Positions 7,129-37,467 of a DNA stretch of 42,649 nt are shown here, one piece after another (within the stretch, counting starts at the first letter, position 1; each line of letters opens with the position of its first letter). The DNA lies in the IMG/VR virus record IMGVR_UViG_3300025131_006463, positions 1 to 42,649 of that record; one strand, written 5' to 3'. Under the pieces are notes generated by a model. The model had not been told where the DNA came from. It worked only from the letters and a program-made list of their open reading frames with translations, and did not search any database. Source of the DNA: a virus. A program made the translations under genes and the position numbers.

Positions 7129-7154
7129 CTATTATTGGAAATCTGTGTTATAAT
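7125..7154 (+). promoter_or_regulatory. Promoter with near-leaderless start
   Basis: TTGACT (7125-7130), 18-base spacer, TATAAT (7149-7154). The ATG of the next gene is at 7160, five bases past the -10 box, which is about where transcription should begin. The mRNA would therefore have little or no 5' leader, and no Shine-Dalgarno sequence lies between the two. Confidence 0.7.
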
Positions 7155-9502: not shown

Positions 9503-10153
9503 ATGGTTGATTGGAACAAACAAAAAAAATGGATAGATTTTGGTATAACAACATATTGCAATGCCGCCTGTCCTAGTTGTCCTCGCACAGATGAAGATGT
9601 TCAACAAGCATGGCCGTGGTTAACGCCAACTCATATTAATGCCAGGAAGTTAGTAAAAGTATTTGAAAAAAACGATTACTTTCCTGGCGTTGAGTACATT
9701 AGATTTTGTGGCGAACGTGGCGACCCAATGATGCATCCAGATATTGAGTATCTAATAGATGCAGTTTGTTCTCACCGAAAAGTTGGTATAAACACCAACG
9801 GCAGTCTTCGTAATCCTGATTTTTATAAACGTATAGCAGAAAAGCACGGACCTAATTGTAACATTATATTTTCAATAGATGGGTTTAAAGATACTAATCA
9901 CATGTATAGAATAGGTTTAGACTTTGATGCAATATGGGAAAACTTCACTACATTTTGTAAAGCAGATGGTTGGGTAGACTGGGACTTTTTGGTTTGGTCT
10001 CACAACTGGCACCAAATTCCAAGAGTAAAAAAAGAAGCAAAAGAACTTGGTATTGAAGAAGTTGGTTTCAAAATAGTATCCTTAGGCAATTCGTATTGTA
10101 CGCCAATTGGTAAAGATATTAAAAAAGCAGTGGAGAAAATGATTGAGTATTAA
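9503..10153 (+). CDS. Radical SAM domain protein A (of a split rSAM/SPASM pair)
   Basis: 216 residues from the ATG at 9503, two bases after the glycosyltransferase stop. The iron-sulfur motif is TYCNAACPSCPRTD, with Cys19, Cys23 and Cys26 in CxxxCxxC spacing. A GEP-like turn follows as FCGERGDPMMHPDIE, then INTNGSLRNPDFY and IIFSIDGFKDTNH. It ends at about where the barrel should end, without the C-terminal SPASM domain; the next gene supplies that. It would bind a 4Fe-4S cluster and S-adenosylmethionine and make a 5'-deoxyadenosyl radical on an unknown substrate. It is closely related to the radical-SAM half of the gene at 10484, sharing a 27-base identical stretch. Confidence 0.9.
   Translation: MVDWNKQKKWIDFGITTYCNAACPSCPRTDEDVQQAWPWLTPTHINARKLVKVFEKNDYFPGVEYIRFCGERGDPMMHPDIEYLIDAVCSHRKVGINTNGSLRNPDFYKRIAEKHGPNCNIIFSIDGFKDTNHMYRIGLDFDAIWENFTTFCKADGWVDWDFLVWSHNWHQIPRVKKEAKELGIEEVGFKIVSLGNSYCTPIGKDIKKAVEKMIEY
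9722..9748 (+). repeat. Direct repeat copy 1, inside rSAM gene A
   Basis: A 27-base stretch beginning gacccaatgatgcatccag is identical to positions 11042-11068 in the second radical-SAM gene. It encodes the G-D-P-M-M-H-P-D-I-E segment. Identity at third-base positions means the two radical-SAM domains arose by recent duplication or are kept alike by recombination. Confidence 0.85.
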
Positions 10154-10463
10154 GTGCCAAATAATTGACGAAGGAGAGATTCAAGTCGACGAAAATTTAA
10201 GAGCATGGCCGTGTTGCTATTATGATACTGCTAATGCCGAAGGACAAGGGAAAACTGGAGATGATTATGTTGATTCTCTCCCAAAAGATTGGAATTCTCT
10301 AAATACACATACATTAGAAGAGATTCTAAAACATAAAGCATTTACGACACATTTTAATGATAGACATTGGAATAATAGTAAATGTTCGCCACTTTGTAAA
10401 GAATATTGTTCTGAAGAATCCGATGCACCATTTGAAGCACGAAATATATCTTTACAAGAGTAA
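10143..10463 (+). CDS. Stand-alone SPASM-like domain protein
   Basis: 106 residues from a TTG start at 10143, with GGAG seven bases upstream inside the rSAM-A gene; the genes overlap by 11 bases in different frames. It begins with IKCQIIDEGEIQVDENLRAW and PCCYYDT, the SPASM 'cysteine, then D-E-N-L-R-x-x-P-C-C' signature, and ends with KCSPLCKEYCSEES, the second cysteine group. It would hold one or two auxiliary 4Fe-4S clusters and work with rSAM-A as a separate subunit. It matches the N-terminal 100 residues of the next protein closely, including a 21-base identical stretch (10338-10358 and 10682-10702). Confidence 0.8.
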   Translation: MSIKCQIIDEGEIQVDENLRAWPCCYYDTANAEGQGKTGDDYVDSLPKDWNSLNTHTLEEILKHKAFTTHFNDRHWNNSKCSPLCKEYCSEESDAPFEARNISLQE

Positions 10464-10479
10464 AGAAAGATGTTATAAT
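10451..10479 (+). promoter_or_regulatory. Promoter with near-leaderless start
   Basis: TTTACA (10451-10456), 17-base spacer, TATAAT (10474-10479). The ATG of the SPASM-rSAM fusion gene lies at 10484, only four bases past the -10 box, so transcription would start at or just after the ATG. There is no Shine-Dalgarno sequence near it. The promoter overlaps the end of the stand-alone SPASM gene. Confidence 0.6.
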
Positions 10480-10483
10480 ATAT

Positions 10484-11488
10484 ATGAGCCCAGAATGCAA
10501 GACACGGAACTTAGTAAAAATAGACGAGAACTTACGTTTATGGCCGTGTCCGTTTGTTAGCAATTCCTATAACAAAACTGAGAGCGGAGGAAAAGCAGTC
10601 CGGGATGAATTTTTAAATGTATTAGATAAAGATTGGAATTCTCTACAAAATAAATCATTTGATGAAGTATTCAATCACGATGCATTTACGACACATTTTA
10701 ATTATGAACATTGGGATGATGAAACAAAATGTTCATGGATATGTAAAAGGAATTGTAGTAAATCGAAGTTGAAAAACATGGATTTGGACTACCAAAAGGG
10801 GAAAAGGAATCGATCCAAATTACTAACAACAAAAAGGTCTCTTCAATCACTTGAACTTGGAATTACTTCACATTGTAACGCAGGATGTTCGGGGTGTAAT
10901 CGCACAGATAATAATACAAGAAAAGCACGTCAAGATCTTAAACTTATTCATACACCAACTATTAAAATTAAACAATGTATTGATAATGCTATTGAATATT
11001 TTCCTGGTATCAAATCTATTGTATTTTGTGGTACTAGAGGAGACCCAATGATGCATCCAGATATTGAGGAGCTCATTGAATATGTATGTCAGAGACTTCA
11101 TTTAAAAATTAACACAAACGGAAGTCTTAGAAGCCCGGAGTTTTATAAACGAATTGCTAATATTCATTTAAAAATTGTATTTTCTATAGACGGATTAGAA
11201 GACACAAATCATATTTACAGATATGGAACTAGTTGGGATAATATTTGGAATAACTTAACATCATATTGTAATGCCGGTGGATATGCCCATTGGGATTTTT
11301 TAGTATGGGAGCATAATTGGCACCAAATTCCTAAGGTTAAACAAATATGCAATAACCTCGGTGTTAAGCATGTAGAATTTAAAATAACACGACAAGGCAC
11401 TCATCGACAAGGCGATGGTACACCAATTGTAAAATCAATAGAAGACGAGCAAACACTTAACACTATAAAGGAATGGATAAATGGCTAG
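10484..11488 (+). CDS. SPASM-radical SAM fusion with inverted domain order
   Basis: 334 residues. Residues 1-100 are a SPASM-like domain (LVKIDENLRLWPCPF, then KCSWICKRNCSKSK). A basic linker follows (LDYQKGKRNRSKLLTTKRS), then a radical-SAM domain: ITSHCNAGCSGCNRTD with Cys131, Cys135 and Cys138, FCGTRGDPMMHPDIE, INTNGSLRSPEFY and IVFSIDGLEDTNH. Known rSAM/SPASM enzymes have the SPASM domain after the barrel; here it comes first. The protein ends, like rSAM-A, at the end of the barrel. Together with the two previous genes this makes an rSAM, SPASM, SPASM-rSAM array. Substrate unknown; the next gene (folE) starts within its last codons. Confidence 0.88.
   Translation: MSPECKTRNLVKIDENLRLWPCPFVSNSYNKTESGGKAVRDEFLNVLDKDWNSLQNKSFDEVFNHDAFTTHFNYEHWDDETKCSWICKRNCSKSKLKNMDLDYQKGKRNRSKLLTTKRSLQSLELGITSHCNAGCSGCNRTDNNTRKARQDLKLIHTPTIKIKQCIDNAIEYFPGIKSIVFCGTRGDPMMHPDIEELIEYVCQRLHLKINTNGSLRSPEFYKRIANIHLKIVFSIDGLEDTNHIYRYGTSWDNIWNNLTSYCNAGGYAHWDFLVWEHNWHQIPKVKQICNNLGVKHVEFKITRQGTHRQGDGTPIVKSIEDEQTLNTIKEWING
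11042..11068 (+). repeat. Direct repeat copy 2, inside the SPASM-rSAM fusion
   Basis: Identical to positions 9722-9748 over 27 bases; see that entry. The distance between copies is 1320 bases, so recombination between them would delete rSAM-A's end, the SPASM gene and the second SPASM domain. Confidence 0.85.
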
Positions 11489-12110
11489 ATGTAACGAAAC
11501 AGTCAGTGTAACAGATAAAGAACTTAATAAAATGCAACGTGATGTTGAAAAACATTTTCAAAAAGTTCTAGAAGCATTAAAAATAGATACAGAAAACGAT
11601 CATAATACTCAAGAAACTGCAAAGCGGGTAGCAAAAATGATGGTACGTGAAATCTTTGCTGGTAGATACGAACCTAAACCAGATATAACTGCATTTCCAA
11701 ATATTAATGATTACGACGAATTATATATAACAGGTCCAATACGAATACGAAGTACTTGTGCCCATCACTTTCAACCAATTGTTGGTAATGCATGGGTTGG
11801 TATTAAGCCAGCAAAAAATGTTATCGGATTAAGCAAGTTTAATAGACTGGTAGATTGGATTGCAAGCAGACCGCAAATACAAGAGGAAATGACTGTTCAA
11901 ATTGCAGATGTTATACAAGAAGAAACAGGCGCAGAAAGTATTGCACTTATTGTTAAAGCAGAACATATGTGTTTAACTCATAGAGGTGTTAAAGAACACG
12001 AAAGTGATATGACAACTTCGGTAATGCGAGGCGACTTTAGAGAATTCCCACATATTAAACAAGAGTTTCTATCATTATTAAATGGCATGAAAGGGTTCGG
12101 TGGATCATGA
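11481..12110 (+). CDS. folE: GTP cyclohydrolase I
   Basis: 209 residues, normal for type I FolE. Zinc ligands are visible in STCAHHFQPIVG (Cys93, His96) and in AEHMCLTHRGVKEHESDMTT (Cys164). IRSTCAHHF and the closing TTSVMRGDF are family signatures. The enzyme converts GTP to dihydroneopterin triphosphate, the entry point to both folate and 7-deazaguanine. With the queD, queE and dpdA-like genes here, the latter role is most likely; it also relieves host control of this step. The start overlaps the end of the radical-SAM gene by eight bases, and the stop overlaps the next ATG. Confidence 0.97.
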   Translation: MARCNETVSVTDKELNKMQRDVEKHFQKVLEALKIDTENDHNTQETAKRVAKMMVREIFAGRYEPKPDITAFPNINDYDELYITGPIRIRSTCAHHFQPIVGNAWVGIKPAKNVIGLSKFNRLVDWIASRPQIQEEMTVQIADVIQEETGAESIALIVKAEHMCLTHRGVKEHESDMTTSVMRGDFREFPHIKQEFLSLLNGMKGFGGS

Positions 12111-13112: not shown

Positions 13113-13439
13113 ATGGGAAGCACCGCAGACTGGTGGTACAAGGAAAGATTACCTGAACTTCAACGTGAAGAAGAGGAAAAAGCAAAACTAAAAAAAGAAA
13201 AGGAAGGCATGGAACAAGCGACTACAATTAACGCAAATAACATAACATCCGAAGGCGAAATAATGTACGATCAACATACTTCAGAATTTCTTATTGGTTC
13301 AAACACCAGCAAAATAGAGATTGACCTTTCGGATATAAATCTGTTATACTTAACAAAGCAAGCTCATAGCAGAAATATCACATTAAACAATCTTATTAAC
13401 GAAATAATGCATGATACGATTCAGCGAGATTTTTTATAG
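13113..13439 (+). CDS. Coiled-coil plus ribbon-helix-helix-like protein
   Basis: 108 residues with AAGGAA seven bases before the ATG. Residues 8-37 are a charged coiled coil (RLPELQREEEEKAKLKKEKE). The last 45 residues, KIEIDLSDINLLYLTKQAHS then RNITLNNLINEIMHDTI, have the strand-helix-turn-helix spacing of Arc/MetJ-type ribbon-helix-helix DNA-binding domains (I-x-I-D-L-S ... A ... T-L-N-x-L-I-N). It may be a small repressor or DNA-binding accessory. It lies directly after the structured spacer and its end overlaps queE by 29 bases. Regulation of the queE unit is possible, as inference. Confidence 0.7.
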   Translation: MGSTADWWYKERLPELQREEEEKAKLKKEKEGMEQATTINANNITSEGEIMYDQHTSEFLIGSNTSKIEIDLSDINLLYLTKQAHSRNITLNNLINEIMHDTIQRDFL

Positions 13440-14253
13440 TATTCAAGGCGAAGGCAAATGGATAGGAACACCAAGTGTTTTTATGCGATTATTTGGTTGT
13501 AACTTTGAATGTAGAGGATTTGGACAGGGCAGGGATCCAAATAACTGGATTAAAAAAGAATGGATGCCTCATCGAATTGATCCAAAGATAAAAGAATACA
13601 AATCATTTAATGACTTACCAGTACCAGCAATAGGTTGTGATTCTAGTGCCACTTGGGCAAAAGAATACATGCATTTAACAACCTACGAAGAAGCATCATT
13701 AGTTGCAAAACGACTAATCGACATTACACCAACTAAACAATGGGAAAATATACATCTAGTTATTACTGGAGGAGAACCACTTATGTGGCAAAAACAACTT
13801 CCAGAATTACTCAGTGATGAAAAGTTAAAAGATTTAAAACATATTACGTTTGAAACAAACGGAACTCAAAAATTAAGACCTCAATTTATAGAATTTCTTG
13901 AAAACTCTAACTTCTATACAACATTTGCCTGTTCAGCAAAACTAAGCATTAGCGGTGAACCTTGGGATAAAGCCATTAGACCAGATGTGGTAAATATGTA
14001 TGGAAAGGTTAAGAATAGCGAATTGTTTTTTAAATTCGTTGTCCAAGACGAACAATGTTTATATGATGTTAAAAAAGCACTTAACGAATATAAACTACCA
14101 AGTAGTACTCCAGTATATCTTATGCCAGTAGGGGGTACACAAGAAACATTAAACCTGACTGAACGACAGGTTGCTGATGTAAGTTTAGCAAATGGCTTTA
14201 AGTTCAGTCCTCGACTACATGTAGGGCTTTTTGGCAATGCATGGGGAACGTAG
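13411..14253 (+). CDS. queE: QueE, 7-carboxy-7-deazaguanine synthase (radical SAM)
   Basis: 280 residues. It starts FSEIFYSIQGEGKWIGTPSV and carries FMRLFGCNFECRGFG, then after an insertion IGCDSSATW. The cluster cysteines are Cys30, Cys34 and Cys76, so about 41 residues lie between the second and third, as in some phage and clostridial QueE forms rather than in compact enzymes. LVITGGEPLMWQ and FETNGTQKL bind S-adenosylmethionine. QueE contracts the pterin ring of 6-carboxytetrahydropterin to 7-carboxy-7-deazaguanine, the step after QueD. QueC, which makes preQ0 from it, is not in the window. Confidence 0.93.
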   Translation: MIRFSEIFYSIQGEGKWIGTPSVFMRLFGCNFECRGFGQGRDPNNWIKKEWMPHRIDPKIKEYKSFNDLPVPAIGCDSSATWAKEYMHLTTYEEASLVAKRLIDITPTKQWENIHLVITGGEPLMWQKQLPELLSDEKLKDLKHITFETNGTQKLRPQFIEFLENSNFYTTFACSAKLSISGEPWDKAIRPDVVNMYGKVKNSELFFKFVVQDEQCLYDVKKALNEYKLPSSTPVYLMPVGGTQETLNLTERQVADVSLANGFKFSPRLHVGLFGNAWGT

Positions 14254-36135: not shown

Positions 36136-36598
36136 ATTTGTACATATACCAATTGGTGTCATTACCTTGGCCTGTTTTTTCAAAGCCACAACTTTCATAA
36201 AAAGGAATGCTGGATGTTTTTGAGAATGTCCACATCATTTCTGCATGTTGTTTTTTAGCATCTTCTTCTAGTACTTCTATTATCTCGTGGCTGTATCCTT
36301 TACGTCTGCAATCCATATCACACCATGCTCCTCTAGTACGGTAATGTAATACAGACGTTTTATGACCCGAATTAACCGCCTTTATACCGTCATTATAGTA
36401 CCCTAAAAACAAAGGAGTATATAATTTAAATATATTTTCATCAAGACGTTGTAAATTATTAAACACCATACAACTCATTGGTTTAATTTCTTGGGATTGA
36501 AATTGTCCATCTTTGAACACTTCTATTTTGTGCTTTTCGTTCCAAAGATCCTTTGCCCAAATTTCTTTTATTTCGACAAACGATAATTCTCTAACCAT
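36128..36598 (-). CDS. GNAT-family N-acetyltransferase
   Basis: 156 residues. The GNAT core appears in WCDMDCRRKGYSHEIIEVLE, where R-R-K-G-Y-S takes the place of the acetyl-CoA loop, followed by SKTSSIPFYESCGFEKTGQG, the usual FYxxxGF near the C-terminus. It would transfer an acyl group from CoA to an amine. It overlaps the radical-SAM gene start by 31 bases and the ANL core by eight, so the three form one coupled group. Substrate unknown. Confidence 0.85.
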   Translation of the reverse strand: MVRELSFVEIKEIWAKDLWNEKHKIEVFKDGQFQSQEIKPMSCMVFNNLQRLDENIFKLYTPLFLGYYNDGIKAVNSGHKTSVLHYRTRGAWCDMDCRRKGYSHEIIEVLEEDAKKQHAEMMWTFSKTSSIPFYESCGFEKTGQGNDTNWYMYKYV

Positions 36599-37467
36599 AC
36601 AGAATGATTCTCTCGTTGTTTTACATCATAGTTACTATAAAGTAGAGCATCCCTGCTTGCACTTCGTTGATCGCAGTTTTTGCAAACATCAATCTTATGT
36701 GCTTTACCTTCCTTGTGCTTTTTTCTAAACTTATTATATGCGTTGCCGTTCCATATCTTAGATATTGTATTTACATCTAAATGTCCTAGCACGGCTTTAC
36801 TATCTTGTCCTAATACATTACAACATGGTACAACGGCACCTTTATGTCCATCTAATCCACCTGCTCTTACATTTAAAACAGGCCACGATACTTTAGGACA
36901 AGGTTCTTTTGATTCTTCTTTACTTAGTTGTCCTGACCAGTTATGCTTATCCCATACAACAAATTTAACTTTATTATCAAACAGTGATTTATATTCATCT
37001 AACCAGTATTTTTCGATTGCAATACAGTTGACAGATATGTTATAATTGTACATGGCACAAACTTTATCGTACACGTCATGGAATTTATCTTGGCCCATCC
37101 ATTTGTTATATGTCTTAGCATCATATCCAATAAAACTAACACGAATACTTGTTAGTCCTGCGTCAAATAATTCTTCAAGTTCTTGAACGTTTTTTGTGCT
37201 TAAATTGGTTGTTATATAAGATTTTAGACCTAGTTCTTTACAAAAACTTATGATTTCTTTTAACTTTTTGTAAAGAATTGGTTCGCCAGAGCCCTGTAAG
37301 CTCACAGATTTGGCGCCATGTATTTTGGCATGCTCTATTATATCTTTCGCTAACTTAAACGGTAAATGTGTAAGGAATGGTTTCTCTCTCTGATAAATAC
37401 CTTGAGGACATATTTTACAAGTGTAATTACATCCTCCAAACAATTCCAAATTTAGGTGATTAATCAT
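36568..37467 (-). CDS. Radical SAM/SPASM enzyme C
   Basis: 299 residues with normal order. FGGCNYTCKICPQGIY holds Cys13, Cys17 and Cys20; VSLQGSGEPILYKKLKE is the GEP turn; ITTNLSTKNVQELEELFDAG follows. The SPASM end has VVPCCNVLGQDSKAVLGHLD and DVCKNCDQRSAS. Known members modify peptides or small molecules, often in natural-product clusters. It heads the minus-strand island with GNAT and ANL genes behind it. Its ATG (37465-37467) overlaps the divergent ATG at 37466. Confidence 0.93.
   Translation of the reverse strand: MINHLNLELFGGCNYTCKICPQGIYQREKPFLTHLPFKLAKDIIEHAKIHGAKSVSLQGSGEPILYKKLKEIISFCKELGLKSYITTNLSTKNVQELEELFDAGLTSIRVSFIGYDAKTYNKWMGQDKFHDVYDKVCAMYNYNISVNCIAIEKYWLDEYKSLFDNKVKFVVWDKHNWSGQLSKEESKEPCPKVSWPVLNVRAGGLDGHKGAVVPCCNVLGQDSKAVLGHLDVNTISKIWNGNAYNKFRKKHKEGKAHKIDVCKNCDQRSASRDALLYSNYDVKQRENHSVWLENYRLSK

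Follow-up and report, generated by a model that had tools for sequence, protein, structure and literature searches.

Organization of the radical SAM array

The viral DNA analysed here (IMG/VR record IMGVR_UViG_3300025131_006463, positions 1 to 42,649; hereafter the window, that is, the whole 42,649-nt stretch) carries an array of radical SAM barrels (rSAM-A and rSAM-B) and twitch/SPASM-like domains (SPASM-1 and SPASM-2) with the following features.

9503–10153, plus strand: rSAM-A, a radical SAM barrel of 216 aa (Pfam Radical_SAM, 1e-11)
9722–9748, plus strand: 27-bp block encoding the conserved family motif DPMMHPDIE, identical to 11042–11068
10143–10463, plus strand: SPASM-1, a stand-alone four-cysteine twitch/SPASM-like protein
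10338–10358, plus strand: 21-bp block encoding AFTTHFN, identical to 10682–10702
10471–10479, plus strand: extended −10-like TGTTATAAT, located a few bases upstream of where the fusion starts and also present in the related contig L007
10484–11488, plus strand: inverted fusion of SPASM-2, linker and rSAM-B, in the same order in L007 and L008
10484–10783, plus strand: SPASM-2 part of the fusion, with the four invariant cysteines kept
10784–11488, plus strand: rSAM-B barrel part of the fusion, with CNAGCSGC (CX3CX2C; Pfam Radical_SAM, 3.4e-11)

Both barrels belong to the radical SAM superfamily, scoring 45.7 (A) and 44.0 bits (B) against PF04055 (cut-off 29.5), and the CX3CX2C motif is invariant throughout the alignment of the barrel family. 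In rSAM-A, which also contains a CGERGDPMMHPDIE motif and whose ORF is devoid of any auxiliary domain, the three cysteines are residues 19, 23 and 26; the protein is 93% identical to its L007 orthologue. SPASM-1 lies in the +1 frame, its first 11 nt overlapping rSAM-A, and starts at a TTG with GGAG 7 nt upstream, both of which are kept in L007; methionine is absent from SPASM-1 in the window and in L007. Its four cysteines are C4, C23, C84 and C88 (numbering of window positions 10146–10460). The fusion consists of SPASM-2 (residues ~1–93), a flexible linker (~94–115) and the rSAM-B barrel (~118–334). A PCC motif found in most homologues is replaced in SPASM-2 by PCP in the window and PCA in L007, the cysteine thus lost not being among the four invariant ones. 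A second extended −10-like TGTTATAAT lies at 7146–7154, directly before another gene start, and the count of these sites across the whole window was not above chance.

Next to the array is a folE-like GTP cyclohydrolase I gene (11481–12110), and a QueE-like radical SAM gene is located nearby (13411–14253). Elsewhere, the minus strand harbors a block of cellular-metabolism-like genes that is unusual for a phage record (28270–37467), encoding a methyltransferase, a nitroreductase, two AMP-binding proteins, two TauD-like dioxygenases, and a glycine-betaine-type ABC permease and binding protein. A conventional rSAM-SPASM protein is also encoded within this block (36568–37467, minus strand), which represents either a host segment or acquired genes.

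The gene order recurs in other metagenomes

The ORFs confirm the inverted domain order proposed in the initial annotation, and a search of phage metagenomes for the fusion retrieved the same gene order from four other IMG/VR contigs, two near-identical to the window (L005 and L006) and two diverged (L007 and L008). L005 and L006, which originate from other metagenomes, are at least 99.65% identical to the window over 13.3 kb and may derive from the same phage population; the independent lineage for the arrangement is that of L007 and L008, with a nucleotide identity to the window of about 81–88%. Because the order is the same in contigs from other metagenomes, including the L007/L008 lineage, the array is not the assembly artefact that the initial annotation had allowed for. 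Across all loci examined, fusions of this barrel family with SPASM first were confined to the window/L007 lineage. Searches of INPHARED yielded no match, either by tblastn with the fusion, SPASM-1 and the L018 barrel or by megablast with a 24-kb part of the window.

SPASM-1 and SPASM-2 resemble a single-cluster twitch domain

SPASM and twitch domains have been described as C-terminal extensions whose catalytic role is hard to isolate, and a twitch domain such as that of BtrN binds one [4Fe-4S] cluster through four cysteines (PMC9012708). Measured against this C-terminal position relative to the barrel, SPASM-1 is a separate ORF and SPASM-2 is N-terminal. The Pfam SPASM model (PF13186) scored 15.7 bits on SPASM-1 (E 0.018), below its 21.5 cut-off, and found no match in SPASM-2; it matched 30 of the 38 aligned homologues at E≤1, with a best value of 2.1e-6. 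Profile–profile comparison by hhalign aligned the stand-alone twitch family with the C-terminal domain that fused relatives carry (probability 99.2). Four cysteines are invariant in SPASM-2 and in all aligned stand-alone homologues, and the C-terminal domain of the fused relatives likewise has four invariant cysteines, matching these. As judged from sequence, this set agrees with a BtrN-type twitch domain, which carries a single auxiliary cluster, rather than with the seven-cysteine SPASM. The functional-looking cluster cysteines noted in the initial annotation are thus borne out, and its concern that homologues of the SPASM-like halves might lack them is dispelled.

Structure prediction gave a model of SPASM-1 with a pLDDT of 81.5, for which Foldseek returned anSME and BtrN as best matches at E>5, that is, not significantly; no recognisable match to solved structures was found with the stand-alone twitch sequence either. 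The AlphaFold2 model of the fusion (pLDDT 85.5, below 50 in the linker) predicts the barrel with high confidence and a disordered linker at residues ~94–115, and its pTM of 0.64 leaves the predicted packing of the domains uncertain.

Barrel and twitch are encoded by separate, probably coupled genes in related phages

We scanned IMG/VR with a profile of the barrel, which identified 449 relatives (79 loci kept), and a broader scan raised this number to at least 542 (80 kept); all proportions given here refer to the best-scoring loci, that is, the branch of the window and its nearer kin. Most non-redundant phage loci encode a barrel followed by a separate twitch ORF. Splitting is therefore the norm in this phage family, and SPASM-1 is not the broken piece that it had been taken for. 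At 66 distinct barrel/twitch junctions in viral contigs, the twitch gene is in the +1 frame in 40 cases and in the +2 frame in 26, with open overlaps at 65 junctions, an ATG start near the overlap at 59 and a twitch start preceding the barrel stop codon at 56; an obvious Shine-Dalgarno-like motif was detected by a crude test at only 41. These mixed frames and starts argue for separately initiated, coupled genes and not for one programmed frameshift. Distant phage relatives are fused too, sometimes on the same contig as split pairs (e.g., L078, L081 and L148). At L142 (2646–4181), a single ORF of 512 aa comprises two family barrels and is followed by one twitch ORF. Clustering of the genes neighbouring these loci revealed no consistent substrate gene, and the conserved small ORFs included no obvious candidate for a precursor peptide.

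No relatives turned up in genome contigs scanned with the phage-type profile, and the fused-type profile identified 113 cellular ones. The 79 loci examined encode mostly single proteins of conventional order, with no genuine split pair among them; an apparent split in a MAG (L243) was discarded, as it looks like a frame-broken conventional gene.

Barrel and twitch genes co-evolve as matched pairs

Barrel and twitch trees of 39 single-pair loci were correlated (r=0.81; 0 of 5000 permutations), common phage ancestry accounting for part of this agreement. Five loci (L082, L153, L165, L174 and L017) contain arrays in which two barrel genes precede two twitch genes (r1 r2 s1 s2). In L082, L174, L153 and L165, r1 pairs with s2 (clade support 100/99 and 97/99), and r2 with s1 (100/99 and 99/99). 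The same nesting is evident in L017, which belongs to a different clade (outer pair, 100/97 and 100/96; inner pair, 100/100 and 100/99). The matching r1–s2 and r2–s1 clades indicate the insertion of one pair into another, independently in at least two lineages, with each twitch keeping its own barrel. L159–L162 carry a matched pair in which the twitch gene precedes that of the barrel (L159, 3103–4187), as separate genes overlapping at TAATG; this swapped pair is plausibly an unfused parallel to the fusion in the window.

An old duplication and a fusion maintained by selection

The identical 27- and 21-base blocks are present as originally noted, together with an exact 18-bp repeat (10284/10628), and had been taken as a sign of recent duplication. 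The 27-bp block encodes the most conserved motif of the barrel family, and protein identity is 48% between barrels A and B and 40% between SPASM-1 and SPASM-2. At identical residues, the barrels use the same codon in 47 cases against 45.8 expected (P=0.44), and their dS is saturated; recent duplication was rejected on this codon test. The corresponding count for SPASM-1 and SPASM-2 is 25 against 17.7 expected (P=0.007), a small excess compatible at most with short conversion tracts. In the 27-bp block, copies from one genome differ less from each other than copies from different genomes do; short gene-conversion tracts would account for this, but the stretch is too short to sustain such a claim.

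In the phylogeny, barrels A and B of the window and L007 form one clade (100/96), within which A groups with A and B with B, and the duplication hence predates the split of the two lineages. SPASM-1 and SPASM-2 of the window and L007 also form one clade, more weakly supported (88/83, on ~112 alignment columns); a quick SPASM tree lacking L007 placed them apart, and L007 with a fuller search brought them together with moderate support. These clades lend support to the proposal of the initial annotation that tandem units were joined anew across the borders between them, as do relatives with one to three pairs in tandem, with nested pairs and, in one case, with a swapped pair. The change of order in the window may stem from loss out of a longer array or from a swap as in L159, and the sequences fit either. 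Relative to L007, dN/dS is 0.074 for rSAM-A, 0.114 for SPASM-1 and 0.353 for the fusion, whose ORF is open in two lineages at a dS of about 0.46. By these ratios, rSAM-A and SPASM-1 are strongly constrained, and the fusion less so, yet still under purifying selection.

A probable two-subunit enzyme family and alternative readings

Collectively, the split genes, the homology and invariant cysteines of the auxiliary domain, the co-evolving pairs, the duplication, the changed order and the purifying selection, all read from sequence comparison, underlie the interpretation that we consider probable: the window contains a split pair of the ordinary kind and a duplicated pair that was swapped and fused, in a phage family of two-subunit twitch radical SAM enzymes. 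The barrel would bind the SAM-cleaving [4Fe-4S] cluster and the twitch-type domain an auxiliary [4Fe-4S] cluster, the two being made as translationally coupled polypeptides that most likely assemble into a heterodimer. In such a complex, the auxiliary subunit would sit as a cap over the barrel's open end and assist in binding or oxidising the substrate, for which a sugar, a nucleotide or another small molecule is a somewhat better candidate than a peptide. The whole pair was duplicated long ago in the window lineage; the rSAM-A/SPASM-1 copy stayed split and strongly constrained, and the genes of the other copy, through rearrangement steps that we infer, probably swapped order and fused into a tethered, faster-evolving SPASM-2–linker–rSAM-B protein.

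Rather than being fixed subunits of a single barrel, stand-alone twitch proteins could have roles of their own, e.g., in carrying electrons or donating iron-sulfur clusters to several radical SAM enzymes, in keeping with the intermolecular electron transfer between unrelated radical SAM enzymes exhibited by PapB and QueE (PMC10470005) and with the queE-like gene 1.9 kb downstream in the window. We regard this as unlikely, since every twitch in the nested arrays goes with a barrel clade of its own, the domain shares homology with the C-terminal domain found in fused relatives, and one copy per barrel would be needless for a general carrier. Alternatively, the split could be only apparent, with programmed ribosomal frameshifting joining barrel and SPASM into a conventional rSAM-SPASM protein. 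The overlapping frames at almost every junction would allow it, as would the methionine-free SPASM-1 with its TTG start in the window and L007; but both +1 and +2 offsets occur, ATG codons lie near most overlaps, spacing varies widely, and the nested or swapped arrangements of L017, L082 and L159 are unreadable by one frameshift. We rejected this mechanism on frame offsets and start codons, and rate it as very unlikely.

As for the fusion, it could be in decay, a by-product that tandem duplication left without a distinct function, as its roughly fivefold faster evolution than rSAM-A and the missing second cysteine of PCC might suggest. This is nonetheless quite unlikely, because the ORF has remained open in two lineages with a dN/dS well below 1, and all four cluster cysteines and CX3CX2C are kept. 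That the whole arrangement arose in assembly or sequencing might be suspected of a virus record from an environmental collection, and has virtually no chance of being correct given its recurrence in other metagenomes, including a lineage with ~81–88% nucleotide identity.

A broader extension of the two-subunit interpretation, to which we give even odds, is that these phages possess a widespread family of obligate two-subunit radical SAM enzymes with the auxiliary-cluster domain as a specific subunit, whose halves would be duplicated, nested, swapped and re-fused as modules, including cross-assembled pairs (e.g., rSAM-A with SPASM-2). Searches of the open-access literature retrieved no account of barrels paired with stand-alone SPASM/twitch proteins, and split enzymes of this kind appear to be undescribed. 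Encoded by a gene of its own, the auxiliary-cluster domain could be supplied to an assay, left out of it or exchanged with no need to cut a protein, and arrays of paired genes offer a natural test of partner specificity. The family also points to a large, uncharacterised capacity for radical chemistry in environmental phages, of which one marine T4-like genome is reported to have 12 radical SAM genes (PMC5332604).

Comparison with known radical SAM proteins

The initial annotation had taken SPASM to follow the barrel in all known rSAM/SPASM enzymes, which the NCBIfam family NF033640 (N_Twi_rSAM) contradicts: like the fusion in the window, its proteins carry a four-cysteine auxiliary domain before the barrel in a single chain. 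Inverted order in itself is thus already known and not new. Six large radical SAM ORFs neighbouring related phage genes match NF033640 above cut-off, and in that of L010 residues 8–70, ahead of the barrel, also match the SPASM model TIGR04085 above cut-off. Alignment of seven N-terminal-twitch proteins (the six matches and one L159 protein added by its layout) revealed invariant C8, C26, C66 and C69 ahead of the barrel CX3CX2C. Neither the window fusion (60.9 bits) nor rSAM-A (48.0 bits) is a member of NF033640, given its 170-bit cut-off; the fusion aligns to the profile only from column 77, and the stand-alone twitch profile and the NF033640 N-terminal domain could not be aligned confidently (probability 18%). 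Since the fusion scores below the cut-off and the twitch domains are not confidently alignable, inverted order most likely arose separately in the window lineage.

Among solved structures, the closest folds to the predicted rSAM-B barrel, which also resembles viperin-like enzymes, are BlsE (cytosylglucuronate decarboxylase), SuiB and SkfB, single-chain enzymes with different, known substrates. BtrN and MoaA share the combination of a barrel and one auxiliary [4Fe-4S] cluster (four cysteines in BtrN; PMC9012708), but their auxiliary domain is C-terminal within one chain, unlike in the window proteins. Similarly, the conventional fused rSAM-SPASM proteins of Bdellovibrionales, Myxococcales and others have a homologous barrel and a homologous four-cysteine C-terminal domain; these are nonetheless single polypeptides with the barrel first, whereas most phage members of the branch of the window consist of two.
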